A stretch of 64,000 bases of DNA from Pocillopora verrucosa (lineage: Eukaryota > Cnidaria > Anthozoa > Scleractinia > Pocilloporidae): positions 22,793,904 to 22,857,903 of the forward strand of contig NC_089312.1 in the NCBI RefSeq assembly GCF_036669915.1, written 5' to 3'. Position 1 is the first letter of the stretch, and each line of letters starts with the position of its first letter. This document shows, piece after piece, positions 2,978-53,042 of this stretch. The notes beneath the pieces are model-generated. The model did no database searches. It saw only the letters and a program-made list of their open reading frames with translations, and was not told the origin of the DNA. Made by a program: the position numbers and the translations under genes.

Positions 2978-3892
2978 TCAAAATCTGATCAACTGCTTTA
3001 TCTCATCTCGAATGTCACTCTTCAGCAAGGCGTATACAAAGAAATTCACAACAGAATTGAAAAAGAGAAATAACCTCGATGTTTGGACAAAAAGTAGCGA
3101 AATTGTACAGAAGTTGTAATAACTGCAAAATGCCCTGTAAGCCGACAACACCCAACATATCTCAAACATGATTATTACAGCGAAAAACGCGTTGACAGTT
3201 GATCTTTCAATCTTCCTTTTCCGCTGGGTTCTAATGTCCAAATTAAAGCGAATGGCTATTTCTAAAGCCTTTATTCGGCGACTTTGGTTTCTAACAATGA
3301 AATATAGACGAGTAAAAGTCAAAAGCATGACAATGCAAGGGAGAATTTCAAATAAAACCAGGACTATCCCTAAGTATATTTGATTGGCCCGCTCTGCTCC
3401 ATCAAACGTGCTGTTGGATGCATCTTGCGCAGCTGGCGAACTCCATTTGAGATCCTTCCAACATAGAGGCATCAGCGTTATCATCATGGGCAGAACCCAC
3501 GCCAGGGCGATCAGTCGCAGTGCCATTGAAGTTGTCATTACAGACGCATACCGAAGAGGTCTTGTGATAGCAACGTAACGATCAAAAGTCATGACGCAGA
3601 GGTTCCCGACTGAAGCATAAAAAAGTAAGTTGTAGAACATAACGAGCACTCCGAAATTGGCATCAATCCAGAACGTGTAGGCGATGTATGATGGCGCCAC
3701 AATCAGTCCTACAGAGAGATCAGCGATCGATAACGACAGCACGAACCAATTTGGCGTCACATGAAGTCTTGCGCGTGTAACGATCAAAAATATGACCAGG
3801 GAATTTCCACATATTATTACAAAGGCCATTACAGAGACTAGGATCCAGTACCAAAAGGCTCCCTTTCCCTCAATAGTGTTGGTTGCTGACAT
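2978..3892 (-). CDS. Class A GPCR, receptor 2 of the cluster
   Basis: Compact intronless receptor of 304 residues starting at an ATG. TM1 carries GN (N30), TM2 SIADL (D58), and TM3 ends in FDRYVAI (DRY at 104-106). TM6 reads EICWVLSAYR, so CW is kept but the proline is missing. TM7 reads NFFVY, so the proline of NPxxY is lost. Loop 3 has C-x5-C (FCSYYNFC). Unlike most of its neighbours it lacks the cysteine pair between TM2 and TM3, so it has no TM3 disulphide of the usual kind. An N-glycosylation site (NST) lies in the second extracellular loop. The tail is very short and stops soon after the KSDIRDEI helix 8. Its closest relative here is the receptor at 26 kb, which shares WYWIL, ITRPL and the same missing cysteines. 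Ligand unknown. Confidence 0.9.
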   Translation of the reverse strand: MSATNTIEGKGAFWYWILVSVMAFVIICGNSLVIFLIVTRARLHVTPNWFVLSLSIADLSVGLIVAPSYIAYTFWIDANFGVLVMFYNLLFYASVGNLCVMTFDRYVAITRPLRYASVMTTSMALRLIALAWVLPMMITLMPLCWKDLKWSSPAAQDASNSTFDGAERANQIYLGIVLVLFEILPCIVMLLTFTRLYFIVRNQSRRIKALEIAIRFNLDIRTQRKRKIERSTVNAFFAVIIMFEICWVLSAYRAFCSYYNFCTISLLFVQTSRLFLFFNSVVNFFVYALLKSDIRDEIKQLIRF

Positions 3893-6800
3893 GGATGCAA
3901 TTTTTTTTGATAGTCTTTATCTCCTACGAAACAAAACGAAATGAATAGATACTATTAATTTCATCGTAAATATTTCTGGTTTGTACGAATACGAAAAAGA
4001 AGGAGTGTAGGAATATTCTTCATTCACCTCTGCATACATGAGGGAAGAATCTGATACACATAAAATTTGAAAAAAAAACTTGAAATAATAAATTGGAACC
4101 GATCAGGTATTTCAAGAGCATTGTGTACAGTACGCTGAGTTGAAAGCAATCCTTCCCATGCCTGTTATGTATGGGATATATTCAGAAATTTTCAAATTAA
4201 GTAAATGAACCACTATTTAAAATTACCATATGGTAAAAATTTTGCTGAAAATTGTTCAAGTGTTCCATTGGCCTTCACTATCGATCAGACACCTCGCAGG
4301 ACTTTAGATGAATTTTCATCACCAACGTTTATCTTCATTGTTTGAAGGGAAAAAAAGCATGGAATTGATAATCGCATCTATTCAGCCAGCGGCTTAATTA
4401 ATACAAGGTTACTCGAAATCATTTTGTATGCATATACGAGTTCTCATCTTGGACTTTCGTGATCGTGGCTTAGAAGCTTATGTTCAGTTTGTTTTGTGTT
4501 TTTTTGTTTAAATTTTAATAATTCAGTTTCGATTACATATGGCGATATACAACCTACATCGAACCACTGACCTATAACTCAGTTAACTCAGTAAAAACCA
4601 TTACCATTCCTTAATGTCAGCGATCTTCAGTCAGTGAAGACATCTTTTTTGTTGTTTTTTGTTTCATTTATATCAAACACACCACAAGCCAGAATGCTAG
4701 GGAGATTAACTATTTATCTTAGTTAAGCATGCCAGGTGAAAGTCAAACTCTATTCAAAATATTTAAACCACCTTGCGAAGTTGTCAATACATACTCAGTT
4801 CTGACTCACCTTGTCAATATCAGTTTTGTGATGCCGAGGCCGAGGCCGAGGCTGAAAATAGAAGCAGGATATGTCAAACATCAGTTGCTTCCACTCAGTC
4901 CGTTGATAGGAAGTTGTTTCAGTCACTTTACCTAAACAGAGAGGATTTGTTGTTAACACCTAAAATGAATTTTTTATATGAAATAACACATCAAAATTCA
5001 AATTGACATATCATATTCAAATTCAATTCAAGCAAATTTTTGGAAGGTGTCGATGTGATCCTTTAAACACAGCACTGTAAAATTGTGTCTAAAAGTGTTC
5101 CTCAGTTTTACCGAAATTAGGCATTTCTGAATTAATTTTCTTGAGTGCTTTTAAGTCCCCGAGCCAAACACGAAAGATTAAAAATTGATCGAGTAAATAA
5201 ATCGCAATATGAGGATGAGGAGATAAGAAAGCTGTCATTAACTTGCAACTTCTTAAGTTCTTCTGCAGACGTTTGGCAAGTAACGAGTCACTAATTGTTT
5301 GTGAGTAGATAGCTTTACACTTTATCTCAGGCTTATATAAACTGTTGGCTGCAGCTCGCATTAAACCGCATCCCACTCAGTGAATTTAATCAATTTAAAC
5401 TCCGCTTTGGTATAAAAGGACGAAAATTGCCTTATAAAATTGAAAATATTATATTCACAGCAATAACGTTGCCGAAAATCAAAAAGCGAAAAGCCTTGTG
5501 GAGCTTAATAAGGCAAATCCAATACTTCCCAGGAAAACTCTGCAGCTTAAGGTGATTCCTAAATACTGCACTGCACATCCTGAACTGCGCAAAAAAATCA
5601 CGTAATCAGGCGAATAAGCGCGCGCATTCAGAGACCACGGTATCGTTTTTTAATGGACTAGGTTAAGAGGTACGATGATCTTAAGTTCTTGAACGAGCGC
5701 GGTGACCTACATTTTTTGTGTGCATAATTTTGGTGTACTTATTATTCCCCTCTAATTTAGAGAAATTTAAACCAATCATCGAAGGGAGAAAAATAGCTAA
5801 AAGCGTGGACGAACTTAATACTCGTGGATGCAAATGATAGAGTGGTTTAGCAAGAGGACGGGAACGTCATTTCAGAACGGCGCGCGCAGCAAAAATGCCG
5901 ATAGAAACTGGGTCGAGAAAGCCGTCGCGTTGTGTTGAAAAGTGATTTAGCAGTCGTTGCAACGAGAATCATCGCCTCGGCTTTTTAAAGATCACCATCA
6001 CCTTTGAATTTTCGGTTTTATAGACCACTCTAAGGACAACGAAATTATCTTCTTTGAGAGTTATGTAACGAGCGCAAACAGAGGATAGTTATAGATACGG
6101 CAAGTAAGTTGTTAACTATGAATCCACATGGGCGATTAAACTTTTAAACTAGTACATTTCAGTTTAGTCTCGAGTCTGCTGATTCATCTATTAAATTTTG
6201 AAGCCCACTAAATAGTTTTTTTCTATGATTTGTGTCGCTGTCATTTCGTTTCGTGCTACTAGATTTCAGCACTACTCGTTTTTCTTCATAATTTTGTAAA
6301 GGATAATTTGGAAATTGTCGTCGTTTTTCCCCTTGTTTACTGAATATTCTTCTCAATTATGACAATACATCTCTTTTGAGCACCACCTTCTTCGAGTTGA
6401 ATAGCATTTTGAACGGAATTATCAGGAATTATGGCGAAACCATGTAGAAATCAAGCGACCCAAAGATGGAGTTGTTTACGACGAGTTCCTATGTGAAAGA
6501 ATGAAATTAACTTAAACTAGTCATCAACGAAACGGTTAGACTTAGGAGTAAGACTTCGTTCCAGTTTTATTATTTTTTTTTGGTTTTTGTTTGATTTAAT
6601 TTTTTAAACGAATGAAGTCGTTCAAGACTGAATTAAATTAATAGATTTAGAAAGCCGTGCTGAGATCAAGTTGATTGTCATTTTATTTCGAAGCGAGAGC
6701 ATTACTTTCTTGTCTTAGTTTTCATCGGCGCTGATCAAAAATTTCAAACATAAAAAAGTGCACACCTGAGCTATTCTCAATTTTTTTTCATCTCTGACTT

Positions 6801-8505: not shown

Positions 8506-9528
8506 TCAAGGAGTCTCTTTGTTAAAGATGTATGAGCTCTTCAAGGTAGCCATTTTCCTTTTCAATTCTTCCCTTAGATCACTCTTAAACGCGATGAACA
8601 CGATGGGATTCATCGCAGGATTCAACAACATTAACAGCCAAGAGATATCAAGCAAATCTGGCGATAGATTGCACAAGTCGAAATAACTGCACAATGATGC
8701 ATACAAGGACAAAGTCCAACACCCAAGAAAGATCGTTATGACTGCAACGGTTACTTTAACGGAAGATCTCGGCAGCCTTCGTCTCGGAAATCTTCGGCGA
8801 AATTCTTCTTTGCTTCTCATTTCCAGCCGTGAAAGGTGCTTACTATTAGATGAGGATCTTTCTTCTGACTCCGTATACACCCTCGAGTGCCATTTTCTGT
8901 ATTTAAACACAGCCTTTCTTGGAGGCTTTCTTGAGAATGTTTCCTTGTTATTAAAGTTTACTTGACGCAGTTGAACTGTAGCTCTTTTTGACTGTAGCTG
9001 TGCTACTCGGATTATCTTCACATTCGCAACAGTTAGCAAAATGCATGGAACAGCCACCATGAAAATCGTTTCTGTGATAGTAAAAATGCGATACCAGGCT
9101 TTTCTTGTTTCAGGCTCAGCGTAGAGCCAGCAAAAATGAAGGGAGAAATTGAACAGGGGTAAAAACCACGAGATCGCAATAATCGTCCTAGTGCAACAGT
9201 AAGTCATTAAATATGGATACCTGAGTGGGTAGGCGATGGCGATAAAGCGATCGGCTGTCATGGCGCACAGGTTATAAATAGACTCGTATAGAAAAAGTTC
9301 CTCAAATGCACCTTTAAGATAAATGTCACATGTGCCAAACCTCTTACACGCAATATTCGCGGGCGCTATGCTCAAGCCAACCATTAGGTCGCTCACAGCC
9401 AAGGAGAGAATAAACCAGTTAGTTAATGTGTGTAGTCTAGATCGCCTTATAATCAACCAGGCAACGACTCCATTCCCTGTTACAGCTACGAGGCTGACAG
9501 CCAGACTGCTGTATGTGTACCACGACAT
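8506..9528 (-). CDS. Class A GPCR with long basic third intracellular loop, receptor 3
   Basis: Seven-transmembrane receptor; the body is one exon. The first in-frame ATG is at 9528 and gives 340 residues with only a few residues before TM1. The open frame continues 11 codons further to a GTG and has a pyrimidine-rich tract ending in AG just upstream, so a separate 5' exon carrying the true start is possible. Landmarks are TGNG in TM1, AVSDL in TM2, ADRFIAI (DRF for DRY), CWTL in TM6 without proline, and NPIVF in TM7, which keeps the proline. Loop 1 has C-x5-C and loop 3 C-x5-C (LCSYFDLC). The third intracellular loop is by far the longest of the eight and is rich in Arg, Lys and Ser, including two RRR clusters, offering many phosphorylation or G-protein contact sites. 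Ligand unknown. Confidence 0.87.
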   Translation of the reverse strand: MSWYTYSSLAVSLVAVTGNGVVAWLIIRRSRLHTLTNWFILSLAVSDLMVGLSIAPANIACKRFGTCDIYLKGAFEELFLYESIYNLCAMTADRFIAIAYPLRYPYLMTYCCTRTIIAISWFLPLFNFSLHFCWLYAEPETRKAWYRIFTITETIFMVAVPCILLTVANVKIIRVAQLQSKRATVQLRQVNFNNKETFSRKPPRKAVFKYRKWHSRVYTESEERSSSNSKHLSRLEMRSKEEFRRRFPRRRLPRSSVKVTVAVITIFLGCWTLSLYASLCSYFDLCNLSPDLLDISWLLMLLNPAMNPIVFIAFKSDLREELKRKMATLKSSYIFNKETP

Positions 9529-9561
9529 GACAGCCTTCAGAACTTGAAGGTTATTCCTCAC

Positions 9562-12500
9562 TCGAAAAAAGCAAGTTTGTCAACGTGTTGAGGACGGAAT
9601 TTTTTTGTTCAGCCGTTATGCTACCTTGTGCTTGAGTCAATCATATGATACGCCCTTAGGCCACGAGTCTATATCCTTTCTTTTAAAAATCACAAATTTA
9701 AATATTCATTGGCTTCAGAGATTTTAAACTAATACATAAATTTTAATCTGTCAAACACCTGCAAAAACAAAAAAAAATTATTTTTATCCTCATTCCCGAG
9801 AAATAAAGAAAATGTAAAGCACGTCTGATCCTGCTCAGCAGCAAGTTTCCTCACCTTCGATAGCAATTTACAGGAGGAATTTCAGCAAGAAAATTCGATA
9901 AACCGGAGGGTCATAGTTCCTCAGCCAAAAGAACTGTTCTCACTTAAAAGCTTAGCTTTTATGTTATTGTAAACAAAATTTACGTTTGTTTGTTCAAGCT
10001 TGACAGAAGCGTTATTAATGTTTTTTCTTTGTCTTATTCGCACTTCAGCTCAGATGTGACACATTTTTGCCTTATTTCTTTTTGCATTGAAATAGATTGA
10101 CTTGTTAAGCCTCCACCCGCAAAGTGGCTCATTTATGGGCGATTTATTGAATAAAGTGTTTTAAAAAGATGAATTAACCTCCGACCGATACAATTACAAG
10201 ATATTACGATCTAACCTCACATCTATTTTAGTTTAATTAAACATGAACCTCTGTTAGTTGTATGGTGAGCGCTTAATGGAGAAATCTTGTTGACTGTCAG
10301 TAATTCGAGTTCACTTGTTTATTTAAATACATCGCACTAGTGCACAAACTGGGCGCCAAAAAAGCTAACAGAATTGGTTCTGAATGACTCTGAATTTATT
10401 TAACCTCCGATGCTTCTGACACCTTACTGGGTAAAATTTGCCATTGTGATGAAAACAAAAGAATAAAATTTATTCTCAAGCCGCCTAAAAAAAAGTTTTA
10501 AATCACGCGGTTGCCATCTCAGCAGATCTTTTAATAACATGTTTTCCTATCTACGATAAAACTGGGTTTAAAAACTGGCATTTTAGCTTTATCACTCAGT
10601 CCTTCAGACCTACACGGAGTAGAGAGAAAGAAGTAAATAGCTGACCGTGACGAGCTGTCAGAAATAGCTCAATTTTTATCATCATTACTACCACTACCAT
10701 TATCAGTAGTTTTATCGTCATCATTATCGTAACTGTTATTTTCATCACGTGTAAAATTATCATTATAATTATTAATATTGACATCATTATTCTTTTATAT
10801 CTTTTAGTCTTTTGTAGCTTGCAAGATTGAAACCATTTTGGACGGTAACATAAACACATTCTCAAGCTTTGCGAATTTAACTATTTGTCTCTTTTAGGAA
10901 TACTATATCGATATCACTTTTATCATTTTTTTTTGCATTGAAGTTCTGTATGTACCTGTAGCTTTCACTTGAGTTCTCGCTTGTTTTCTGAAAAGAGTTC
11001 TTATCAATATTTTTGTCATAAATCTACAATGCAAATCACTTGTAGCCTTGAACACACAGCTTTATTGACAGCAGAGAAATAAAAACAGCAGTTTTACACA
11101 AATTCCAGTTATTTAGTTTGTCTAAAGCGTTGTATGTGATCTCATGATATTTAATTTTTTTTTCTAAAATAAGAAGATAGAAAGGAATCTCTCTTTCTTG
11201 AAAGTACAACCGCCACTTGAATCTACACGCGTGTGATACTTTTTTTTACTGAAAAAGATTGTTCGTCACAGATGACTGTCTTTTGAACTCGTTCTTTTAT
11301 GTAGTGTTTACTGACTAATATATTTTCTTGGTCTACAAAAACGAAAATAATAATAATAATAATAAAAACAGCATACTGAAAAGTTTTCTATATACAGCAA
11401 TCTTTGCCATCAAAAAAGGCGAAGAATGAAATTACATAACTACATTCAAACAGAGACAAAAGAAAAGGAAACTGAAATTTGACCTGCCGTTATCATTGAC
11501 GACAAAAACGTTTTGCACTCTCAAACATATTTGCCGAACATAGGAGATGTAATCAAAGAATTCAAAAGGTTAAAAGATAATACAAGCAAGGCAAGTGCAG
11601 CTGAAATTCATTTTCACCTGATCAAAAACGTTTTACAGTCTGTATCAGAGAGTGAAAAACGTGTTCCAAACGTTTAAAGGTGCATACCTTCCATGGCAAC
11701 GAGCAAGATTCGTCACATATGCAGCATTCAGTCTGATTCAAGGTGAAAACAGCTGCCACGCCCAATTATCGCATATTTTCAGGACTGAATTCAAGTTAGA
11801 AATGATCGCTTTAGTTTGTGATAAAATTACGATGAGGTGATTTGAACCAAAGGCGAATATTTACGTTAACTATCTTTGTTTGGTGCAAAGCATGGAGTAA
11901 TGGAACATGTTCATACATTATTTTGTTTGTTTATTTTATGGCTCATTTGCGTAAAATTAAAAAAGTGTTAACTAGTGTTAAAGCATTGCCTTGGGTGCAT
12001 CTTTGTTCAGTACAGTTGTAATTAGTTCGTCTCATTTGGTATACTTTTTTTTTTCAAGAGTTTCCCTTGACGACTACAAGCACAATAAGCGGTCCCCTTT
12101 CAATCTTTAATCCCAAACACATTTCCGTCCACATAGATAAATCAGTGATATACTGCAAATATTGTTCCTCGACTCACGTTTTACCTCTTATCTTATCTAT
12201 ATTTCTGATTGCTGCTACTGCAACGGTACAAAAACAAAAAGCAAAAGAAAATGAATAACATGTTAGAGTGGATGATTTTGAAGCTAAAATAGGGAAACGA
12301 GGTATACAACATTAGTTTACGAGTGACATGAACATTTGTCAATGTTCTGTTATCCTGATGGTTTCTATAATATGGAATATCAACAGCTGCGCTGTTATCA
12401 GTTTTTCAGTTAAAAAGGCTTCATTCAAATTTAAACCAAAGCCGCCACACCTGAGACAAAATGGTACAAATTTCCATGTCAATACTTCACCAAGGCTCTA

Positions 12501-12863
12501 TTCACCTTAATTGTAATTTAAAGGGTTGGAGAGGGCTATTTTTCATACGGCTGTCAGGTAATGTTAATAAATATATATTTCCTGAACACCATCAGTGTCA
12601 ATTAGGAAATATACGTAAAATATTTAATTTATAAGTGATCTTTTTATTGGTGATAACGGTGTCTCAGTTCAAATATCAAGTTGATGTAGGATACCAAGTT
12701 GTTTTCTTTGAATTGAAAAGCCTGACTCTCGGGTAAATTAATTCAGTTTCATTTGCGTGTTAAGTAGACATGGTAGCTTTCCTCATTACTTATTACGCTG
12801 GGTCAATTAATATCTGAAGCGGTGAGTAAACACAAGGAGGAAACCTAACTTTTTTCTTCTACA
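9562..12863. other. Intergenic stretch between receptors 3 and 4
   Basis: No recognisable exon. Simple sequence occurs at 10676-10795 (ATCATT/ACC-rich) and at 11344-11366 (AAT triplets). The longer open frames here (for example 11652-11840 and 12067-12258, plus) have no family features. Confidence 0.5.
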
Positions 12864-13859
12864 ATGGAGGAAAACTTGACTTTACCCAAAGTGGATTTAG
12901 ATAACAACACTTCAAGTTCACTGCCAGTTTACTACATTATCCTCGCATCGCTTATCGGGTTCGTTGCAGTGTTTGGGAATGGGGTAGTGATCTATCTCAT
13001 TTCTACAAGAAGACGACTTCATGTGGAAACCAATTACTTTGTGGTGTCCCTTGCTTTTGCAGACATGTTGGTAGGCTTGTTTCTTCCCACTTTCATCATC
13101 GCCTGTGACTTCTGGTCGGACTGTGATAAAACAACTTATTTCATGTTTTTTAACCTGTTCACCTTAATATCCATAGCGAATTTATTTGCCATGACAGTGG
13201 ATAGGTATATATCGATTTTATATCCTCTGCGTTATCAGTCATATGCCACATCAAGGCGACTTTTTGGCACAATCTTGGTTTCGTGGATTATTCCAGCATA
13301 TCTCTCCTTCTCTCCGCTTTTCTGGACACTTGCAAGTTCGGAAACAGTTAAAAATACGGGAAAAAAAGTTCATGCTTTAATTGTTATCACTGCATTCGAG
13401 GTGATACCCACCGTTGTCATGCCAGCCATGTATATCCAAATTTTCGTAACTGCAAGGCGACACGCGCGGCAGGTTGCAACACACCAAACTCAGCTCGACT
13501 TCAACAGTCAAGTCAACAACAGAGATAACATGCAACAGGCGACAGCAGATGCGGGCAAGAGAGCCTCTCATACCTCACAACAAAGCAAAGGTAAAAGGAA
13601 GACTGCAGATTTATCGAGTGTTATAGTATTGGGAGCTGTCATAGGCCTTTTTGTTGTTTGCTGGTCTTTTGACACAGTGATTTCGCTCTGCAGTAAGTTA
13701 GAACTGTGCGTTATCAGTGATGGTCTTTTCAGAGTATCTGATTTGATGATTTTTGTAAATTCTGCCATAAATCCACTCGTCTACGCGTTTTTGAAGAAGG
13801 ACATAAAACGGGAATTTAGTTTTATTTGTTGTTGTACCGTGGCAATGAATGAGAAGTAA
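12864..13859 (+). CDS. Class A GPCR, receptor 4
   Basis: Intronless receptor of 331 residues with an ATG start. N-glycosylation sites occur at N4 and around N14-N15 in the outer N-terminus. TM1 has FGNG (N39), TM2 AFADM (D67), TM3 ends VDRYISI (DRY at 113-115), TM6 is CWSFD without proline, and TM7 is NPLVY, the only fully canonical NPxxY of the eight. It has C-x5-C between TM2 and TM3 and C-x5-C in loop 3 (LCSKLELC). The third intracellular loop is polar and Gln/Asn/Ser-rich. It is one of two plus-strand receptors in the cluster and lies upstream of, and convergent with, the minus-strand Wnt gene. Ligand unknown. Confidence 0.9.
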   Translation: MEENLTLPKVDLDNNTSSSLPVYYIILASLIGFVAVFGNGVVIYLISTRRRLHVETNYFVVSLAFADMLVGLFLPTFIIACDFWSDCDKTTYFMFFNLFTLISIANLFAMTVDRYISILYPLRYQSYATSRRLFGTILVSWIIPAYLSFSPLFWTLASSETVKNTGKKVHALIVITAFEVIPTVVMPAMYIQIFVTARRHARQVATHQTQLDFNSQVNNRDNMQQATADAGKRASHTSQQSKGKRKTADLSSVIVLGAVIGLFVVCWSFDTVISLCSKLELCVISDGLFRVSDLMIFVNSAINPLVYAFLKKDIKREFSFICCCTVAMNEK

Positions 13860-15058
13860 TTTATTTTCATGAGTTGTTATGTAAACCAGCATCAAGCTTG
13901 TTACCTCGGGTTGGTTATGATAAGTAGCTATATTACTTTCGATGTTAGAGATCTTTGAACTGCACAGTTTTAAATACAAACAAAGGGATAAATATAAGTA
14001 TAAATAAGAAATTACGCGTTTCCGCTCAAGCAATCCAAAATGTAACCTCCTGTGAAACATATAAATAATTTTATTTATGTCAATATATTAAATTTTCAAC
14101 GTTTGCAAGGTAATTAAACCAGTAATAAAATTAATTGAACTCGCTCTTTGAACCATTTCGTCATTTTTCTGAGTATGGTCATGAAGACCCGATCGTCAAA
14201 TCTTTTTTAAACCAAGCCACATTGCTTACAGCATCTATGATAGTTAATAACTATTATCCGAAGTGGGGGTGGCTAATGGTGTTCATTTTCCATGGATATC
14301 CATCGCTGGCCACCGGCACTGAGGTGAGCAGTTCTTTTAGCTTATAATAAAACAGTCACATAATATAGCGCAAAAAGATAATTCTAACTCACTTATTTCT
14401 GCAACAATTATAACCAAATCCCGCACGAGCCGCTCGGAAGTGAGAAGCAAACTATTAAAGATATTTGGGTTTAGTGGGCGCTTATCCATTGTTTTAGGAT
14501 ATGCATGCTAATATTAATTCTTCATTTAATGAGAAATAAGTACTGATACAGACTGACGTTCCAAAAGTTTTCTTGAGACTTGATGTAATGTCATTGATCC
14601 GTATGATGAGTTTCCTAACTCTTGTAATTTTTTTGGGGGGGGGGGGGAAAAAGTCAGTTATAAGCAAGCAAATGAATAATAAAAAAGCGAAGCGACAACC
14701 GAATTCAATATTTTGTTGTTTGGTAACAAATGTAATCATGGCTTTTATTCTTACTGTGTCTCATATTAATTTCTTCCACGAAAATACCATTTTTCCTGTT
14801 CCGTATCAACAATCTCGTTTTCAGTTGGTACCTTCACCATTAAGAAAATTTAAAGCTAAGAGACTAAGATAGGCGTGGGTATCATGGGTGTAGGTGCTCA
14901 TTTGCATTTTCTACTAAGCATTTATTGATACAATTGAACAAAACGGAACAAAATCGTTATTGTACAACTAACCATCTTGCGGCTACAATACTTCATCTAT
15001 CATCTTTGTCTTACTTTTTGAGCTGATTTCAACCTTAGATTAGATTAGAGGCGACCCA
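13860..15058. other. Interval between receptor 4 and the Wnt 3' end
   Basis: Convergent 3' flanks with no coding exon seen. A run of 13 consecutive G lies at 14635-14647, likely length-variable. Confidence 0.6.
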
Positions 15059-18000
15059 TTACATGCACTTATTTTCCATAATCACATCTGTGCATACTTT
15101 ACAACTGCATGGCTTATCAACACTCGTTTTACAGTCACAAAATCTCTTCTGAAGTTTTGCCTCCCGTTTGTAGCCCCGACCACAGCACATCAAGGTGCAG
15201 TCACCTTCTTTAAGAGAGTTCAATTGGCAGCGGCGGCCACGCGTGCCTGGAATGCCGTATTCATTCTGCCGATAGCAGTAGGTGGGAGAGTAACGGATGT
15301 AAACCAGAGATGATTTCCTTGGTCTCTTTCCATTTGGTCTGTCGCGGTACCGCTCAATGGTTCGCAGAAAGGGTGAATTGTTCTTTCCTCGTTTGTGCGC
15401 AGTAACCCTTGTGGCCAAGTGATACTTTCCCTTAATGATTCGGCTGATTTTGTGGAGTGGTGGTAAAGTTAGATGGCAAGACTTAACTCTCCCAGTTTTT
15501 CCCACTGTGCATTTTGCCACTCGATTCTCTTGTAGAACCTGAAAAATGTTTCACAGGTAATTAGAATCATGCTTTGGTATAATACACCATTAAATTGAAT
15601 CTTGATCTTGCTGCCGCACAAGTGCGAATCATTTGGGGCTGACAGTGCCAAGTGACCCCTACAATTGCTCAATTAAACGAAAGGGGTAGATAAGCTCTTA
15701 CGCCCCCTACATCCCCACCCTGATATGAAATAGTAGAAATATACAATTACATCCTACAAGAGACTGTAAACTGTTATATTCTCTCGCATCCTACTATGTT
15801 TTTTATATCTGGAGTAAAACCCCATCGTTGAAAACTCGTGTTTCTCTCCTGGGAGTGTCAATTTCCTATAAAAGAAGGTGCAAGACCGATTTTCTGAAAA
15901 CTCACGCCGAAAATTAAAGACAGTACGGTTTGTGACAGATGGGGACCCTACTATCTAACCATAAAATTATCTTTAAACTATTTCATAAAATGCAAGGATG
16001 GAAAAGCTCACAAATGAAGTAAAAGGATAACAACTTGAATATCCTACTGTATTCACCTGAAGTCCAACTCTGATATTGTGCTTCATGACAAGTGTATCAA
16101 TAGCGCTTTTATTTCTCCTGTCATTCAGCATAAAACGTTCAGATGAGTAAGTTCCAAAGTGAGCATTTGCACTACAACCTTTCCGTTTCCAGGTCTGCCC
16201 GTACCTGGGACGTCTGATTCCCTCGCAGCGGCATTCCGTGACGTTTTTCGCTGTGCAGGCCTTTGTTACACTGTAGGCTATTGACGCTGATAGCAATGCA
16301 GATGTAAACGCCGCCTCTCTTGTCCCAGCTGGAAAGTGAGATAATTAAATGTTATAAGAAAAAATTCCACCTTATTCAGGAATAAGAAGGAAACCTGGAG
16401 TACTAAGAACGTAAAAATATCACATACCCAGACGTTAATAGGCACGTTTACCCTCATGTTTTGTATTAGTGCGTATGCGTCTAGATGAAAATAGTTTTGT
16501 GTTTTTGATGTTAGCATAACAAATTAAAAGCGGACACGTAAAGACACGTAATGAAAAATACTGAAGATGAGGACACCAAAGACGAATTTCTTCATAAACA
16601 ACGTGAACTAAGGAACACTCAAGAGCAGGAACAGATAGGACACAAAGATAGACACTCACTGCAGAAGCTGAGCGAGATGACTAAAAGAGGCCTATCGGCG
16701 CATGCAATTACAGATCAGAGTCAGAACGAAAACTGACAGAAATAGGGCCAAAAAAAATGCAATTACAAAGGTCGCCGAAGTAAACCAACAGCTTCTTTTT
16801 ATGAATCACTCCGGATCGGGCTAAAATAATATTTAAATGGTAACTTTTAAACTGGTCGGGGTACCGTTGTGTTAATTTCGATATACGCCAAAAACTTTCA
16901 ATTAGCTTCAAGCGGGGACGATTTTGATTTCGTGCCCACAACTCAGGAGAGCAGGAAGTACTCGCTGTTCGACGTTATTTTGTCAGCATGGAGCCTTGCC
17001 AATGGAACAAAAGTTAACTTGAAATAAAACATGACTCTTTGATAGCACTTTCCGCACATTCTGTACGTCCTCAACAGAGGAATAACAAGCAGTGTGGAAA
17101 CTGGGGTGATTAAAACTGCCCTTTGTGTGCAATTTTGATGTTTAATCACATTTCTGTGGCCATTAAGACTCCATTTGATCCTTAACCTTTTTACATCTGT
17201 CAGTTTGGACTTTCCCTACAACCATAAAGAAACGTAAATACGCCAATGATAACAGATGTTGGAGTTAAGAAAAACAAAGTCATGTTGATTTAAAACAAAG
17301 CATGGCTGACGTACTCACCTGGTGCTCGTTCCAAAAGACTTTTGTTTACAAGCGCACTACAATTCCACCTACTCCACTGAAATTCTCGCTCGCATTCTGA
17401 TAATCCTCTCTCGATCCCTTTCTTTATTGCAGTCTCGAGTCCAAGCACTCTGAAGCAAAGCTTTCTTTGACTCACGGACAGTCCTGGTGCTTTGTGACAC
17501 CACGAATCAGAGCGGCGTGCCTTTTTAGCACTGCTCGTGTCACTGCGAAAAAAATTGATAGCACTTCCCACTCACTTGGAGAGCATTAACTTAATTAGCA
17601 ATTTAACGTCTGTTTTGATTTTCGTGAGGAATTGGCTTTGGACTGTACTGATCGGGTATAACTATAGCTAGGCGTATCTTTATCAAGCGCCATAATTTCA
17701 ACGCTACTCGTGAGTAACATATACGTTTCCTTTGAATTTTGATTGATATGCATCAACGGGAAAACCCAGAATTTCACCTTCGGGGAGAAAAAAGAATCTA
17801 AAGACATGGTTTCCACTGATAGCTCATTGAATTCTCCTCAACTCAGCACGACCGGGGCCGTCAGTGTCAACGCTGTTTTGAATGTCAATTGCAAGTTGAT
17901 CTTGTCCATGGAACACACATAATTTTTTGCCTGTTCTGGTTAGCAATGTGATGGATCTTAGTTCAGATCTCAGGTATTTTTTTGAAGTAGATGCGAGTGG

Positions 18001-18735
18001 ACTGTTGATTATCTCAGTCAGTCCTAATTTACCCACAGATATTAAAAATACGTCGATGTTAAACAAATTATCACTACCCAAATATCTATTTCTCTTATTT
18101 TGAAACAGACCGAGGCAAGGGGGAACTTCGCTTCAACATTATTCTCGCTCTCTATTGAAAAACGATCATGTTAACACGACGTACATGTTTTATTGTCGGA
18201 CAAAGATCTCGCTTTGCTCGAATGAAATTCCAATGGCTCTTCATCGAGACAAAGTAGGAGACGCTGAAGATGACTCGAACACAATCTATAAAGATTTAAA
18301 GTTAAATCAATGATCACGGCGTATTGACTTGTGTGTCTCTTTTTAAATCTTTGCAGAGCCTGTATTCCTTATATACCTGTATACCATGTTCTGAGGTATT
18401 AACCTCGACTTACATAGAAGAGCATAATTGCTTTTCAAAAGATACGTGGATATACGTCTTGGCTTGAATTTCGAAACTAAGTTGAATAGAATCAATTAGT
18501 CTGTGTAAACTTGATAGTGATCTTTCCTTGATTTTACAAAATCTTGCGAGAGGCTCATCAACCTCTTCGCATCGAGATCAAAACCAAGATCCCTAATTTT
18601 CATGAGCAAAAGAACCCTTTTTCATGTCCACGCTGAGATTTTTTTTTTCATTACTTAGTGACATGTATTTCTCACGCGAGTAACTTACCCAAAACAGTAC
18701 AACAGGAACACTATGAACCCTACATAAAGCTTCAT
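15059..18735 (-). CDS. Divergent Wnt-family secreted protein, four exons
   Basis: Wnt-like signalling protein of 340 residues. Exons in order are 18735-18689, 17542-17319, 16328-16057 and 15538-15059; all introns are GT..AG and phases match (2, 1, 0). Exon 1 encodes only a signal peptide (MKLYVGFIVFLLYCF) and ends at a strong GTAAGT donor. Exon 2 has PGLSVSQRKLC and ECEREFQWSRWNCS, the N-terminal Wnt hallmark with its N-glycosylation site. Exon 3 begins AGTREAAF and carries VTKAC. Exon 4 has LPPLHKI, LVYIRYSPTYC, DCTLMCCGRGY and a C-terminal cysteine cluster. The family normally has CHGxSGSC, whose serine is acylated by Porcupine; here the position reads CTVGKTGRVKSC with no serine. The usual FxWCC tip reads TSVDKPC. 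The WGGC motif is also changed to KRKGC. About 21 cysteines remain. It is an intact but aberrant Wnt; I cannot assign a subfamily. Confidence 0.9.
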
Positions 18736-21691: not shown

Positions 21692-22657
21692 CTACCGAGA
21701 GGTGTGATTAAAAATATTCAGACCCACTCCTTCGACCTTTGCTGCAATGTTGAGCTCACTGTCGCATCTAAGCAATTTTCGCAGCTCTGTGCGGAAATCT
21801 TTTTTAAGCAGCGCGTAGACCAAACAGTTGATAGCACAGTTTAGATGAATCAAGAGAATAGATGCAAGGCGTAATTGAGGAGAGGGCGAGCAAAGTTTGA
21901 AATTTAAACAGAAAGAGATATATATGCTGAGACTATAACAAACCACAAACAAGCATAAAACTGCGCCAAGAATCTTAGCTGATAGCCTTTCTCGCTTGTA
22001 TTTGTACTCGACACGGAAGGTTTGGTTGAACGATAAATGCGCTGCTTGAGAGGCAGCGCTCCTAGAGTGCCTAAAAACTATCATCAAAATTCTCACAAAG
22101 ATTATCACGAGTAGAAGACATGAAAACAAACCAAAGAATAAATCCACGAAAACCCGATAATATGACTCTATCTCTTTTCTTGGGGTATTATCATAAAACC
22201 ACAGAAGGCGAATAAATGACACTAAACCTGATGTACTCCATGGTAGGGATATGATGACTGTTATTTTACGTGTTGTCATTTCCGTCAGATATGACAGAGG
22301 ATACACGATGGCGTGATGTCTGTCGTACATCATTGCCCACAAGTTTAATGTCGATGCAAACAACAGGAAGTTGTAGAAGGCTAACTGAAGACGCCAGTCG
22401 CATGGAAACAGGTACGAGCATACTAGGCCAGTCGGCGTTAATAAAAGCCCCACACAAAAGTCTGATACAGCAAGAGATAACACAAACCAGTTACAAATAA
22501 TCTGCAAGCGCTTTTTTGTCGCTATCAGGCAAATAACAACTCCGTTTCCCAAAATGGCGAAAGCAGAGATTATCAGCCGTGCAGACCAATACCAGGCTAT
22601 TTTAGGCTCCAGTGAATAATGTCTTTCGGATGATTGTATCCCGGATGTGTTATTCAT
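21692..22657 (-). CDS. Class A GPCR, receptor 5
   Basis: Intronless receptor of 321 residues starting at an ATG, with an N-glycosylation site near N2-N3 (NNTS). TM1 has LGNG, TM2 AVSDF, and the end of TM3 reads MYDRHHAI, so DRY is DRH here, unlike any neighbour. TM6 is CYSL without proline and TM7 is NCLVY, again without the proline. C-x5-C pairs occur in loop 1 (VCSYLFPCDW) and loop 3 (FCLNFKLC). The short second loop has no cysteine. It shares CDWR, NFLL(F/L/Y), ASTLNLWAM and LIHLNCA-type words with the receptors at 48 and 52 kb, so these three form one subgroup. Whether the DRH change lowers coupling or raises basal activity is not predictable from sequence. Confidence 0.9.
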   Translation of the reverse strand: MNNTSGIQSSERHYSLEPKIAWYWSARLIISAFAILGNGVVICLIATKKRLQIICNWFVLSLAVSDFCVGLLLTPTGLVCSYLFPCDWRLQLAFYNFLLFASTLNLWAMMYDRHHAIVYPLSYLTEMTTRKITVIISLPWSTSGLVSFIRLLWFYDNTPRKEIESYYRVFVDLFFGLFSCLLLVIIFVRILMIVFRHSRSAASQAAHLSFNQTFRVEYKYKRERLSAKILGAVLCLFVVCYSLSIYISFCLNFKLCSPSPQLRLASILLIHLNCAINCLVYALLKKDFRTELRKLLRCDSELNIAAKVEGVGLNIFNHTSR

Positions 22658-25600
22658 CTGTTTTTAGCACATTTTATAGCAGTGAAATTACATGTTAGCA
22701 GGGAGTCGATCCAACGTGGAGACAATTATCGGGACGATGGTACTGGCTACCTCACGTTGCCATGTCTGTTCTCTCTATCTTCAGTTGTTAAGGGTGGTCT
22801 AGATCTTTAACAATAAAAACAGGCTACGTTCAAATGAGCGGCGATACCTGAATCTTGAGTGGAATTCTTGTAACCGATACTATCAGACTTCAGTCTGTAA
22901 GAAAACAAGTGAAGTGATTCACAACGCTCTCCTATTTTGCCTCCTTACGCACCAAATATCGTCAGTCGCAATTTCCTATCGTTAACTTCAAGACTCTCCG
23001 AAATTATTATTCTACATGCTTTCCTTGATTACCGAAAGACCGGCATTATTACGATCGAGGGCTCCTTCCGAGCAGTACTATGCGCAGATGATGTGTCTAG
23101 ATCTAGCCCCGATTCTTTTGAGTCTCCTGGCAAATGCAAGAACTGATGCGTTTGGATTAATCAGGTTGGAAACGCAAAGTTATTGTTGTCAAGTTTTCCA
23201 TCGACTTAAAAGATTACAACTTATTGCAGCAACAGAGACGTCAACAACTACGGGTGCGTGTCTGTCTCAGTTATTAAAATGATATATTAGCATTTAATTA
23301 CACGTGATGTATATTTAACTGGGTCAAAATGTTTACTCTCCAGAGAATTTAAGTTGGATTATAAAAACAAAACGTGACAAATATCACATTCAAAAACTGA
23401 ATAAAGGCACTTGTGTCAAGTTTATCGAAATTGCGACGAAAAGGCTTCCCTTACTTGTCTCATCTTACCATTCGTGCGTCGGCGTCTTCTGATCTACTTT
23501 CACCCATTTTTCGACAACAATAATAACAAACGTTTACTTGTACAAATTTTTCTAAAGTTCTGATACCTTCAAGAGCAAAAATCAGACAGTCAGCAGCTGA
23601 GAACACTTAGTGTTTTCAAATAAGTCAGCGAACCATGTCTGTTTGTCGATTCGTTATTCATAAGCATAACATTACAGGTATTTATTAATCTATAAGAAAC
23701 AAAATGTCGACAGAATATGGAGAATAATGAAATTACCAAGATTTCGGTCTCACAAAACACACACACTCCAAAATAGCAGCGCCAGTGAAAAAGAAACCAA
23801 TAACACATACAAAAAGAGAAAAAAAAACAAAACAAAAAAATAGCAAATGCAAACGAGAATAAAGAAAAAAAAGATGCTCTCTAAGCTGGCTAATTCATTT
23901 GCTCCCCGCCCGATTTTTTTGGCTGACGAAAGAAGGAAAATCGCTTATCTAGCTCAGAAGTAGTCATAATTGTTGCTGTTATTTCCCTTTTTTTAAGAAA
24001 GATAAAAATTTCATTTACTACACCTATACCCGCAGGAGCAGAACTTTCATAAGGCTACTTTGATAAATGCGTTTTCATGATTCTTTAAGAATATTACCGC
24101 AGGGCTGATATATCGAAGAAAAACAATTAGCGATATTTACTGGTGAAAATGCATGGTAACCTATCAAGTGCAGGAATATTTTTGCCATTTCGCTGTTGTT
24201 AATAAAAAGAGACAGTTTTGCATTTTAATTTTAAGTCGATTTAATTTTTGAAACGGTTTTTTCCATTCGGTCAGTTGTTTGCCAAAAATAAAAAATGACA
24301 TACCATCTTTCTTTATCCACTACCGCACTCAAAATTTTCCATGTTTCCATGCCCACTTTCTCTCAAGAATTATTAAAAATTGCTGATCTTAGCAGAATGC
24401 AAGAAGCGTGTCACATGTGAACTTCATGATGGCCTAACCCACAACACAGCCGTCTGTTATTTGGTCAGTGGTGGAGTATCGAAGGCGGAACGCCAAGCTT
24501 AGAATCTGCGTTCGATTTTTGATGAAAATTTAGATTTTTTTGCCCCACGCTGGTGACATTGCCAATAACGTTTCGCTCAGTTAATCTAATATCAAGTTCA
24601 GAAAATTATCCGTCCTTTTCATTTTATTTACCAACTCATTCTGTGTTATAATTCAATGTTTCTTTTGTTAATATTTTTCGTTATTTTCAGTTTTATTTAT
24701 TTCCATTTTTATAAGCACTCTTTTTTTTATACTTCCGTGCAGTGTTTATTAGTGAACGTAAAACCAGTTTCAGCATAATCTGAACGATCTAGCGCATTGG
24801 ACCATCGTTGTTTCATAATCAAAAAACTGTACTGAAGTTAAATAAATTCAATAGCGAAATTAACGGAAAAACTTCGTGTTGAAGCTTTGAAATCGGTCTC
24901 ACTCAAAATTAAATAATATTCATAACTTGGAATGTCGTTGAATACATTACATGTTCTGCAGCTGTGTAAATAAAGGAAAAAAAAAATAGAATTATTTTAA
25001 GTCACAGGACCACACATAGGAAGCACAAGTGATTTCCTTACCGACCATTTCCGTGTCGACCATTTGTTGAACAGTCAAAGAAAAAAGTCTGCAGCCAAAT
25101 TTCCCAATGCTCCAATTTTAGGTGAGTACAGGTATAGATATATATGTGGTCTATAAAAGCTCTAGTGCTCTTTGCTTTCTATACGATCTCAATTGAAAAA
25201 AGTGTACACAAACGGTCTCATTATTTTCTAAACCAACAATTCGACTAAGAGATTACGTTTTTATCGAAAACAGAAATAATAACAAAACGGGAGGGAAGAG
25301 GGGAGTCTACCTGCGTAAACGAAACTAAATTTTTGCAGTTCCTGATATCTAAAATTGTTTTTCCAGCACTTAAACTGGAAATTCCCTTTTGTATTTGAGG
25401 CTTTTATTCAATCAACGTAAATATTCCGTTGAAGATTTAGTAATGTATCGTACCCTAGACTTTCGCTTACTCCTGCGATGTGGTTCTTTCCTTTGTGAGG
25501 CAAACATCATATAATCTAAGCGACCTAATAATGAACAGAAAATTACAAATGACTCATAAAGACTTTTAAAGAACAAAAGCTTATTTAGAAAAGACAATGA

Positions 25601-26028
25601 ACTTCGCATCAGCTGAGCTAAAGTAACATGAATGTTAGTCCAAGTAGTAAAACAGTAGAAGGCAGCTGTCACTGAAGAGAAGAAAGAAAATGGAAACTAA
25701 ACGCTGAAGTTTACTTTACGGATTGGTAGAAGGTTATAATGAAAGGTGTTATGCCAACATCCTCTATTTGAACGGCTTGGATAGCTTTCCTTCCATTGGG
25801 TGGTTGATCAACTCTAGAATTTTCGTTGTCAGTTATTGTCAAATCGCTCTGAGAATCATTTGCTGTTCTGAGCTGGTTCCTCACGATATCTTATGAGCTT
25901 TCTGGACAATCGGCCTTTTAACCCAGTAGGATTTGTTTGTAAAATGTTTCTGCTTCAGTCCATAACAATTATCCTTTTGGTTTAATAGCCGATGTAGATG
26001 AATAGCCCGAGCTGATAACCCTTAAGAG
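22658..26028. other. Intergenic stretch between receptors 5 and 6
   Basis: No recognised exon, repeat or RNA gene in 3.4 kb. An A-rich tract lies at 23815-23870 and a short TA run at 25135-25147. Small open frames here have no family features. Confidence 0.5.
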
Positions 26029-27069
26029 ATGGTATCGTTGAATACCATACGTGACAAGGAGGCGTACTGGTACTGGATCTTGATTGTCATCATCGGAATC
26101 ACAACAGTGTGTGGGAACATGTTGGTTATATACATCATTGCGACGAGGAGAACACTGCACGTCGCAACCAATTGGTTCATACTTTCTCTCTCTTTCTCCG
26201 ATTTGCTGGTTGGACTCTTAGTAATACCAACTTACATCATCCACACGTTCTTTGTACAACTAAATCTGCATGCTCTTTTAACATTTTATAATCTTATCTT
26301 ATACGTTTCCGTTGGGAATTTGTGTGCAATGACAGGAGATAGATATCTTGCCATAACAAGACCGTTGACATACGCGTCAGAAATGACTCCTTCGAAGGTC
26401 TCGATATTTATACTTATTGCATGGATAGCACCCACTAGTTTGTCACTTTTATCATTGTCATGGAATACTTCGACCGAAACCAAAGACACCATAAACAGAA
26501 TGTACAGCGGCTTGATTGTAGTCTGTTTCGAGGTAATCCCGTGTTTTATGATGATTTTGGTCCATATCCATCTGTATCTGATAACTCGATATCACAGTCG
26601 AAGAATCGCTGCGCAGGGCAATGTCATGGACCGCCACCGCAGCATCAATTATGTCACACGAAGGAGACAAAGGAATCGGGAGAGATCCAATCTCAAGGTT
26701 TTTGCAGCAGTGGTCCTGTTGTTTGTCTTTTGTTGGGTTTTGTCAGCGTATCGTGGATTTTGTGAAGTTTTCAGCCTATGTTCTGTAGGCAACGAAATTG
26801 TTCAAATCTCCAGAATTCTCATATTTTCAAATTCCGCTGTTAATGTCGTCGTGTACTCACTTTTAAAAAGGGATATAAGGACGGAGCTAAAGCGCTTCCT
26901 TAAGTGCCGTGTAAGGCAGGAATCACTTCAATTTGGCCTGGTTACTTTACGAGAGTCGATGAGACCCAGCCGCCTGCTTGAAATTGGCGTTTATACATCA
27001 ATGCGCGCGCATCAGGGGCCGGAACCTTCTTTAAATCAAGAGCCTCTCTGTCGTAAAGTAGTCGACTGA
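26029..27069 (+). CDS. Class A GPCR, receptor 6
   Basis: Intronless receptor of 346 residues with an ATG start. TM1 has CGN (N30), TM2 SFSDL (D58), TM3 ends GDRYLAI (DRY at 104-106), TM6 is CWVLSAYR without proline, TM7 is NVVVY without proline, and helix 8 is KRDIRTEL followed by KC, a possible palmitoylation site. Loop 3 has FCEVFSLC. As in receptor 2, the loop-1 cysteine pair is absent. Receptor 2 and this gene are each other's closest relatives in the window (shared WYWIL, LHV.TNWF/PNWF, FYNL, VGNLC.MT, ITRPL.YAS.MT), although they now lie 22 kb apart on opposite strands, so a duplication with inversion is likely. It has the longest cytoplasmic tail of the set, about 55 residues. Ligand unknown. 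Confidence 0.9.
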   Translation: MVSLNTIRDKEAYWYWILIVIIGITTVCGNMLVIYIIATRRTLHVATNWFILSLSFSDLLVGLLVIPTYIIHTFFVQLNLHALLTFYNLILYVSVGNLCAMTGDRYLAITRPLTYASEMTPSKVSIFILIAWIAPTSLSLLSLSWNTSTETKDTINRMYSGLIVVCFEVIPCFMMILVHIHLYLITRYHSRRIAAQGNVMDRHRSINYVTRRRQRNRERSNLKVFAAVVLLFVFCWVLSAYRGFCEVFSLCSVGNEIVQISRILIFSNSAVNVVVYSLLKRDIRTELKRFLKCRVRQESLQFGLVTLRESMRPSRLLEIGVYTSMRAHQGPEPSLNQEPLCRKVVD

Positions 27070-48143: not shown

Positions 48144-49103
48144 CTAAACCAAGGTAACTCGGCATTCAGTTAGATGAACAGGATTATCACATCTCATCGG
48201 TCTCCAAAACCTTTGTAATTCTTTGCGTATGTCCTTCTTCACGAGGGCATACACAACAAAATTCACCGCAGAATTAAGGTGCACTAACAACAAAGCTATA
48301 GTATCAACAAGACTACTAAGGTGGCACACATCAAAATTGGAGCAAAATGAAACACAGATATTAAGACTGTAACAAATTACAAACAATAAAATCACTAGTC
48401 CTAGAACTTCTGCTGATGCATTTCTTCTGGCCTTTTTAAGGCGTTGTGGAACACTTGAGGAGTGATTAAAAATTACTTGATCTATTTGTGTAGTTGATTG
48501 TCTGAGTTTTTCTCGGCAGATGTAAAAGATACGCCCATAAACAGTCACTAACATCACGCACGAGAAAACACCGAATAAAAGATCAATTACCATGCGATAG
48601 TACCTATCGATCGTTTTGTCGACTCTACCATAGAGCCAAAACAAACGGACAAATGCGGCAAGAAAGGAGGTGAACCAAGACATAGCTATCATCGCTGAAG
48701 CTCGCTTGAATGTCATTAGTGACATGTAACGCAATGGATGTACAATTCCAACATATCTGTCGATAGCCATCGCCCACAAGTTTAGTGTGGAGGTGTAAAG
48801 CAGGAAGTTGTACACTCCAATTTGTAATCGCCAGTCGCACTGAAATCCAAACGTACAAAGGATTCCAGTGGACGTTGTTATCAAGCCAATGCAAAAGTCC
48901 GCAATTGCCAAGGATAGCACAAACCAGTTGTTCGTGACGCGTAGGCGCCGTTTTGAAACGATCAAGAAGATGACGATGCCATTACCCACAATTGCTAGAA
49001 AAGCGATGATAACCTTGATGGTCCAATACCAAATTTCTTGAGGCTCAATCAGAGCATGTCCTAAATTATTTGAGTCGTTGCTTGAATGCGAAATGTTTTC
49101 CAT
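48144..49103 (-). CDS. Class A GPCR, receptor 7
   Basis: Intronless receptor of 319 residues with an ATG start and an N-glycosylation site at N3 (NIS) plus one near N9. TM1 has VGNG, TM2 AIADF, TM3 ends IDRYVGI (DRY at 115-117), TM6 is CYSLN without proline and TM7 is NFVVY without proline; helix 8 is KKDIRKEL. Loop 1 has LCTFGFQCDW and loop 3 FCSNFDVC. The third intracellular loop is basic (QRLKKARRNAS). It is closest to receptor 8, which lies 2.9 kb away on the same strand, and then to receptor 5: the three share NNWFVLSLA, CDWR, TLNLWAMAIDRYVGIVH (two of three) and LLFGVFSC or LFFGVFSC. Receptors 7 and 8 are evidently a tandem duplication. Ligand unknown. Confidence 0.92.
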   Translation of the reverse strand: MENISHSSNDSNNLGHALIEPQEIWYWTIKVIIAFLAIVGNGIVIFLIVSKRRLRVTNNWFVLSLAIADFCIGLITTSTGILCTFGFQCDWRLQIGVYNFLLYTSTLNLWAMAIDRYVGIVHPLRYMSLMTFKRASAMIAMSWFTSFLAAFVRLFWLYGRVDKTIDRYYRMVIDLLFGVFSCVMLVTVYGRIFYICREKLRQSTTQIDQVIFNHSSSVPQRLKKARRNASAEVLGLVILLFVICYSLNICVSFCSNFDVCHLSSLVDTIALLLVHLNSAVNFVVYALVKKDIRKELQRFWRPMRCDNPVHLTECRVTLV

Positions 49104-53018: not shown

Positions 53019-53042
53019 GTCACTTTCTCTTCTATCTATCAC

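Follow-up and report, generated by a model that had tools for sequence, protein, structure and literature searches.

In the literature covered here, lipidation and a two-point grip on Frizzled are regarded as defining for Wnt proteins, and Drosophila WntD is the one unlipidated member named. Both points of contact are described for Wnt3a in the parts of the source covered (PMC4068752). Site 1 comprises S209 and G210; S209A neither binds the Fz8 CRD nor signals, and its secretion is lowered by more than 90%, while G210R loses reporter signalling and apparently the lipid too. Site 2 is the tip of the index finger (F331, W333, C334-C335, V337), in which C334-C335 is the finger-tip disulphide. Binding is nearly abolished in W333A, and reporter signalling is abolished in C335A and V337R; in a zebrafish assay, F331A, W333A and C335A behaved as wild type and V337A retained reporter activity (PMC4068752). 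A change in the finger alone therefore need not kill activity. WntD has no acylated serine, is exported independently of Wntless (PMC10112924) and is active in vivo (PMC10112924, PMC11703082). A further contact lies distal from the Frizzled site: XWnt8 contacts LRP6 with its N-terminal loop and its N-C linker, and the linker is the main LRP6 contact in other Wnts (PMC10089208, in the portions covered). Among the matches listed in a partial coverage of the literature on Wnt acylation, serine-less Wnts and coral and anemone repertoires, no serine-less Wnt besides WntD appears, and none from a cnidarian; this is weak evidence rather than proof. Here we describe a coral Wnt gene in which both Frizzled-contact tips are lost.

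The window gene and its place in the Wnt family

The gene lies on the minus strand of a 64,000-nucleotide stretch of Pocillopora verrucosa DNA, hereafter the window. It has four exons, and 15059-15538 is exactly the last of these, from acceptor to stop.

18689..18735, minus strand: exon 1, with the ATG and a hydrophobic, signal-peptide-like N-terminus (MKLYVGFIVFLLYCFG, judged by eye)
Exon 1 donor, minus strand: GG/GTAAGT, phase 2
17319..17542, minus strand: exon 2, with the first four Wnt cysteines and an RWNCS N-glycosylation sequon (N76)
16057..16328, minus strand: exon 3, GTREAAF... of the N-terminal domain, with four Wnt cysteines retained
15059..15538, minus strand: exon 4 (the feature under study), with the thumb hairpin, N-C linker, C-terminal cysteine-rich domain and stop
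15476..15511, minus strand: thumb hairpin C191-TVGKTGRVKS-C202, from alignment and AlphaFold
15308..15403, minus strand: basic N-C linker of about 32 aa, from alignment
15092..15139, minus strand: index-finger hairpin C315-D-C-K-TSVDKPC-S-C-K-V-C330, from alignment and AlphaFold
14921..14926, minus strand: candidate poly(A) signal AATAAA, a consensus match only, 133 nt past the stop

A second AATAAA is found at 14744-14749. All three introns are GT/AG and the frame is continuous through phases 2, 1 and 0, giving a coding sequence of 1023 nt and a product of 340 aa. The frame and splice phases are thus intact, as the first-pass annotation had stated; its signal peptide corresponds to an N-terminus that is hydrophobic by eye. 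The phase 1 intron before TRE and the phase 0 intron before exon 4 are at the positions seen in other Wnts, a comparison in which the window gene was read directly and 23 other genes were searched assuming those same phases. Searched against its own genome, the DNA of the locus gave a single match, with no duplicate or haplotig copy.

The Pfam wnt profile (PF00110) matches the 340-aa protein at E=5.6e-68 and 230.1 bits (cut-off 20.3), covering positions 2-304 of 305, and exon 4 alone gives E=1.1e-28. In a PDB search the best match is Wnt7a (8tzo, E=8.6e-51 over residues 24-332). Exon 4 carries the landmarks LPPLHKI and DCTLMCCGRGY, which flank the altered motif as had been noted. On these matches the gene is a member of the Wnt family, far past chance. 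The canonical Wnt cysteine count is 24, and 20 of these are kept (4/4 in exon 2, 4/4 in exon 3 and 12/16 in exon 4); the four that are absent are exactly the two tip pairs, of thumb and finger. One cysteine, C325, has been gained, leaving the mature chain with an odd count of 21. The whole protein contains 69 K/R against 25 D/E, and exons 3 and 4 are the most basic among 24 coral Wnts compared.

The Wnt gene is surrounded by GPCR-like frames that are apparently intronless, eight of which reach at least 200 aa from stop to stop in the window; 7tm_1 was confirmed in both of the two tested.

26-1177: GPCR-like frame
2978-3916: GPCR-like frame
8506-9579: GPCR-like frame
12849-13859: GPCR-like frame
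21692-22663: GPCR-like frame
26026-27069: GPCR-like frame
48144-49136: GPCR-like frame
52017-53060: GPCR-like frame

Loss of both tips and constraint on the remainder

At the position of CHGxSGSC the window gene reads CTVGKTGRVKSC. In a MAFFT alignment of exons 3 and 4 (29 rows), CKCHGVSGSCTVKTC is replaced by C-TVGKTGRVKS-C, which is three residues shorter through deletion of C2, H and G. The acyl-serine column is Gly194, the second serine is Thr and C3 is Gly, so that both serines and two cysteines are indeed gone, as first reported from a gapless comparison. The outer cysteine pair of the thumb (C1/C4) is retained and the inner pair (C2/C3) is absent. The Porcupine acceptor Ser/Thr is lacking, a loss of the acylated serine that is shared with WntD. 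A motif scan of the window in all frames found no alternative exon restoring CHGxSGSC, and no WCC on the minus strand; on that strand its only returns were CHGTT at 13844 and SGSC at 14434, both short, attributable to chance and set in sequence that does not resemble a Wnt. Among the Pfam wnt matches listed on contig C1 there are only three exons of the window gene. An alternative last exon carrying the motif, which had been named as a possible refutation, is rejected on both searches.

The loss at the acylation motif therefore stands, but it is not confined to that motif as had been supposed, since the WCC finger is equally destroyed. In the alignment FxWCCxV has become T-S-V-D-K-P-C, with F, W, C, C and V all replaced. 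Read from the aligned sequence, both Frizzled-contact tips are missing from the window gene.

Exon 4 was modelled alone with AlphaFold, using an alignment of 20 of 26 open last exons. The model has a pLDDT of 81.6 and a pTM of 0.51, compared to 85.1 and 0.48 for a coral Wnt7-like control; because of the pTM of 0.51, no domain arrangement is claimed. Both hairpins are retained in the prediction. The thumb strands span exon-4 residues 7-12 and 18-24 (7-13 and 21-27 in the control), and the finger strands span 123-137 and 145-158 around a tip of seven residues (123-139 and 143-158 around a tip of three in the control), with finger pLDDT block means of 92-94. A Foldseek search with the model returned nine matches at E<=0.001, all of them Wnts with Wnt7a first, at low TM-scores (0.35-0.42 by query).

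Conservation was judged against 18 reference rows, of which 15 are from coral (an exon 3 is used again in two of these) and three from the PDB; the other 11 of the 29 rows, namely the window gene and ten Wnt8-like rows, were left out. Near-invariant columns are lost at 11 of 11 tip positions and at 10 of the 45 others (p=2.4e-6, post hoc), and strictly invariant columns at 7/7 and 2/27, respectively. When the whole hairpin and finger regions are taken, 12/18 are lost compared to 9/38 elsewhere (p=0.0026, post hoc). These Fisher tests are post hoc in that the finger region was spotted by eye before testing; across 18 variants of row set, threshold and region definition, p ranged from 7.8e-7 to 0.011. 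The nine losses outside both regions include W139 and G118 and fit a general relaxation.

The remainder of the protein has nevertheless not drifted freely. Columns identical in coral Wnt7 and human Wnt7a were divided by conservation: the window gene keeps 33 of 51 residues in the near-invariant class and 18 of 52 in the variable class (p=0.002), or 34/52 and 24/63 (p=0.003) when the other Wnt7 last exon is used. In a neutral simulation that started from coral Wnt7-like exons 3 and 4 (254 codons), ended at 33% identity and included no indels, 0 of 300 frames stayed open and the mean was 9.1 stops. Neutral drift fails to explain the open reading frame, and the simulation points to constraint that lasted for most of the branch and need not persist at present. 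The pairwise dN/dS of the window gene is unusable because dS to the Wnt7 relative is saturated (3.7). With a four-exon frame, GT/AG introns, Gly194 in the acyl column and conserved residues preferentially kept, the initial reading of an intact Wnt that does not resemble a pseudogene and lacks the acceptor serine is borne out.

Kinship and other tip-altered Wnts in the coral genome

A Pfam search of the genome (353.4 Mb, 52 contigs) gave at least 67 wnt exon matches. Exons 3 and 4 were modelled for 23 other genes, with exon 2 added where matched and splice sites sought at the Wnt phases. In the resulting tree, the loci at C14:20.74 Mb, C14:20.72 Mb and C13:0.32 Mb group with Wnt7a (96/93), Wnt5a (95/96) and Wnt3 (94/93), respectively. 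The window gene is the longest branch, at 3.36 changes per column in one tree and 7.83 in another. In the free search it joins another long branch, C4:27.55 Mb, and C9:8.46 Mb is the row at the shortest path distance. Holding it with Wnt7 gave the best likelihood of those tried, 0.54 log-likelihood above the free search (p-AU 0.599); 11 of the 12 placements tried, Wnt3 and Wnt5 among them, were not rejected at 0.05 and one was (p=0.044). The highest identity, 33%, is to a coral Wnt7-like row. For exon 4 by itself the top-scoring locus is C4:27.55 Mb (33%, E=1.5e-16), and its identity to 19 other coral last exons is 23-31%. Wnt7 thus appears to be the nearest match, with a kinship that is not statistically separated from that to other Wnts. 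DNA and protein-level searches of the genome revealed no close copy, and none of seven pattern matches in viral_contigs is related to the window gene. Membership of a Wnt8-like expansion was rejected: that clade has support of 100/98 without the window gene (bootstrap not settled), and the window gene ends in CCGRGY rather than LCxxC.

Two short sequences are common to the window gene and the coral Wnt7-like locus: IPGT, present in each of the two Wnt7-like last exons, and GTRE, present in exon 3. The window gene differs from Wnt7 in that identity is only about 32% and its thumb and finger tips are destroyed, and in that the coral Wnt7-like locus at C14:20.74 Mb has two last exons where one was found here. 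The linked Wnt7-like and Wnt5-like loci each have two last exons per single detected exon 3.

L013, 4452-4934 and 1106-1582, minus strand: paired last exons, Wnt7-like/Wnt5-like loci
L019, 7329-7826, with L021, 1272-1775, plus strand: paired last exons, Wnt7-like/Wnt5-like loci

This arrangement suggests, from the gene models, mutually exclusive 3' exons, and alternative last exons have been described for anemone Wnt7 (PMC3909931, in the part covered). An MBOAT search of the genome for a Porcupine gene yielded ten exon matches, none of which was assigned to Porcupine.

A census was taken of 26 open last exons, from the window gene, 23 other genes and two alternatives. It leaves out L031, whose last exon looks broken, L032, a stop-containing fragment in which CNGVTGSC can still be read, and weak matches (C5:13.675 Mb) whose last exon could not be read. 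Of the 26, 18 have Ser in the acyl column, four have Thr and four have neither. WCC is absent from exactly the four that have neither: the window gene and three Wnt8-like genes at C5:13.449, 13.496 and 13.515 Mb.

L028, L029 and L030, C5:13.449-13.516 Mb: Wnt8-like trio with open exon 3 and 4 frames

As in the window gene, these three have no WCC finger; their C1 and C4 are close, with nothing of CHGxSGSC between them. They differ in an LCxxC-type C-terminus and in the loss of larger pieces, and are of separate origin, falling inside the Wnt8-like clade, which has support of 100/98 and does not include the window gene (bootstrap not settled). Wnt8 is the best PDB match of the trio member at C5:13.515 and of the clade member at C5:13.43. 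Pairwise dN/dS within the trio is about 0.49-0.57 (NG86). Since the trio sits in a separate clade, double tip loss appears, on the tree, to have arisen at least twice in this genome.

Other tip changes were seen among the coral Wnts. The fourth relative of the trio is L031, with its broken-looking last exon. In four Wnt8-like genes the motif reads CHGVTGSC, so that within this clade Thr has replaced Ser at precisely the Porcupine acceptor position. Two near-identical Wnts show a reversed pattern, in which C1 and C4 are lost (Gly, Met), C2 and C3 are kept, three residues are inserted (CEGGFFNSDPC) and WCC is kept.

L022, 2297-2764, plus strand: Thr-bearing Wnt8-like last exon
L023, 1136-1609, minus strand: Thr-bearing Wnt8-like last exon
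L025, 1250-1717 and 5759-6226, both minus strand: Thr-bearing Wnt8-like last exons
L026, 4120-4590, and L027, 3852-4322, plus strand, C5:13.66 and 13.67 Mb: reversed-pattern Wnts, acyl-serine kept

Readings of the gene and comparison with known systems

What could a Wnt with neither tip do? The reading we favour, with a probability of about 0.5, is a functional, secreted and fast-evolved Wnt paralogue that has kept the disulphide core, lost both Frizzled-gripping tips and would act as a lipid-free modulator. From the behaviour of the Wnt3a mutants we infer that both the lipid and the grip on Frizzled are absent. No acceptor serine would mean no palmitoleate from Porcupine, and a protein without lipid would not undergo normal Wntless transport. 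A Wntless-independent export route such as that of WntD (PMC10112924, in the part covered) would be needed, because Wnt3a S209A is secreted so poorly. With neither tip, the protein would not bind the Frizzled CRD in the known mode. Its strong positive charge may hold it at the cell surface or matrix and favours sticking to heparan sulphate, making the "diffusible" Wnt of the first-pass annotation doubtful. Its N-terminal loop and N-C linker could then compete with real Wnts for LRP5/6, or for heparan sulphate. The position of the LRP6 contact away from Frizzled, together with the excess of K/R, favours a modulator at the level of LRP or matrix; it would probably be inhibitory, which is the most speculative part of the proposal.

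Several other readings draw on the same evidence. A lipid-free agonist in the manner of WntD, freely secreted and using an altered interface to activate one particular Frizzled (or Ror/Ryk), would suit the two hairpins that are still predicted with new tips and the zebrafish activity of single Wnt3a finger mutants, and WntD itself shows that a Wnt without the acylated serine can work in vivo. Here, however, the finger is lost besides the thumb, and Wnt3a S209A, G210R, C335A and V337R each lose reporter activity (PMC4068752, in the parts covered), which makes a lipid-free agonist with the ordinary Frizzled grip unlikely; nor is there special kinship to WntD (4krr, E=1e-9, against E=8.6e-51 for Wnt7a). 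We consider an agonist of this kind rather unlikely. The very long branch, the 9 of 38 near-invariant columns lost outside both regions and the broken-looking last exon of L031 would also fit a gene in early decay, in which constraint was lost recently, the frame is as yet unbroken and the tips, useful only for Frizzled binding, went first. Against this, about 67% amino-acid change has left the frame and splice sites unbroken and 20 of 24 cysteines in place, retention is higher at conserved residues than at variable ones, and no simulated neutral frame remained open at the same divergence; as this last result covers most of the branch, it is compatible with a recent loss of constraint. Early decay is, on balance, improbable.

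The remaining two readings would leave an ordinary Wnt or an artefact. Acylation could persist at Thr196 (VGKTGR) or another residue, given a hydroxyl in a short turn at the thumb tip and the four coral Wnts with Thr exactly at the acyl position, from which it follows that Thr may be tolerated by the coral's own Porcupine. Counting back without gaps from C4, however, Gly fills the acyl column, Lys stands in place of the Gly that follows it and there is no tip disulphide; the Wnt3a G210R mutant loses signalling and apparently its lipid (PMC4068752, in the parts covered), and here the finger is lost too, so that continued acylation is very unlikely. A single assembly lies behind exon 4, so an assembly or sequencing error might be suspected. 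This is scarcely credible when the in-frame alterations affect two sites separated by more than 100 codons, when identity to 19 coral last exons stays at 23-31% across the exon with no local break, and when the locus matches its own genome once.

The lipid-free modulator that we favour may belong to a wider class. Tentatively, there could be at least two origins, one Wnt7-like and one Wnt8-like, of lipid-free "decoy Wnts" without Frizzled tips, with LRP5/6, heparan sulphate or a different receptor as their target. Two Wnt lineages that have shed both grips and kept much of the disulphide core would let the purpose of the remaining parts of the Wnt fold be read from a natural experiment. As native lipid-free proteins with a Wnt fold they might be handled without detergent, and used to test Wnt action on LRP5/6 or matrix without Frizzled.

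DKK1 and the secreted Frizzled-related proteins are natural Wnt inhibitors. The window protein may resemble them in taking up a receptor or a ligand partner while sending no signal itself, but it has a Wnt fold, and the likeness is one of proposed function alone; DKK1 also figures in the portions of PMC10089208 covered. With WntD, as far as the sources covered describe it, the window protein shares the absence of the conserved acyl-serine from an otherwise Wnt-type secreted protein. The window protein has lost the finger as well, the animal phylum is another, and the N-terminal domain of WntD (4krr) is the weakest of its ten PDB matches, over residues 51-126 only.
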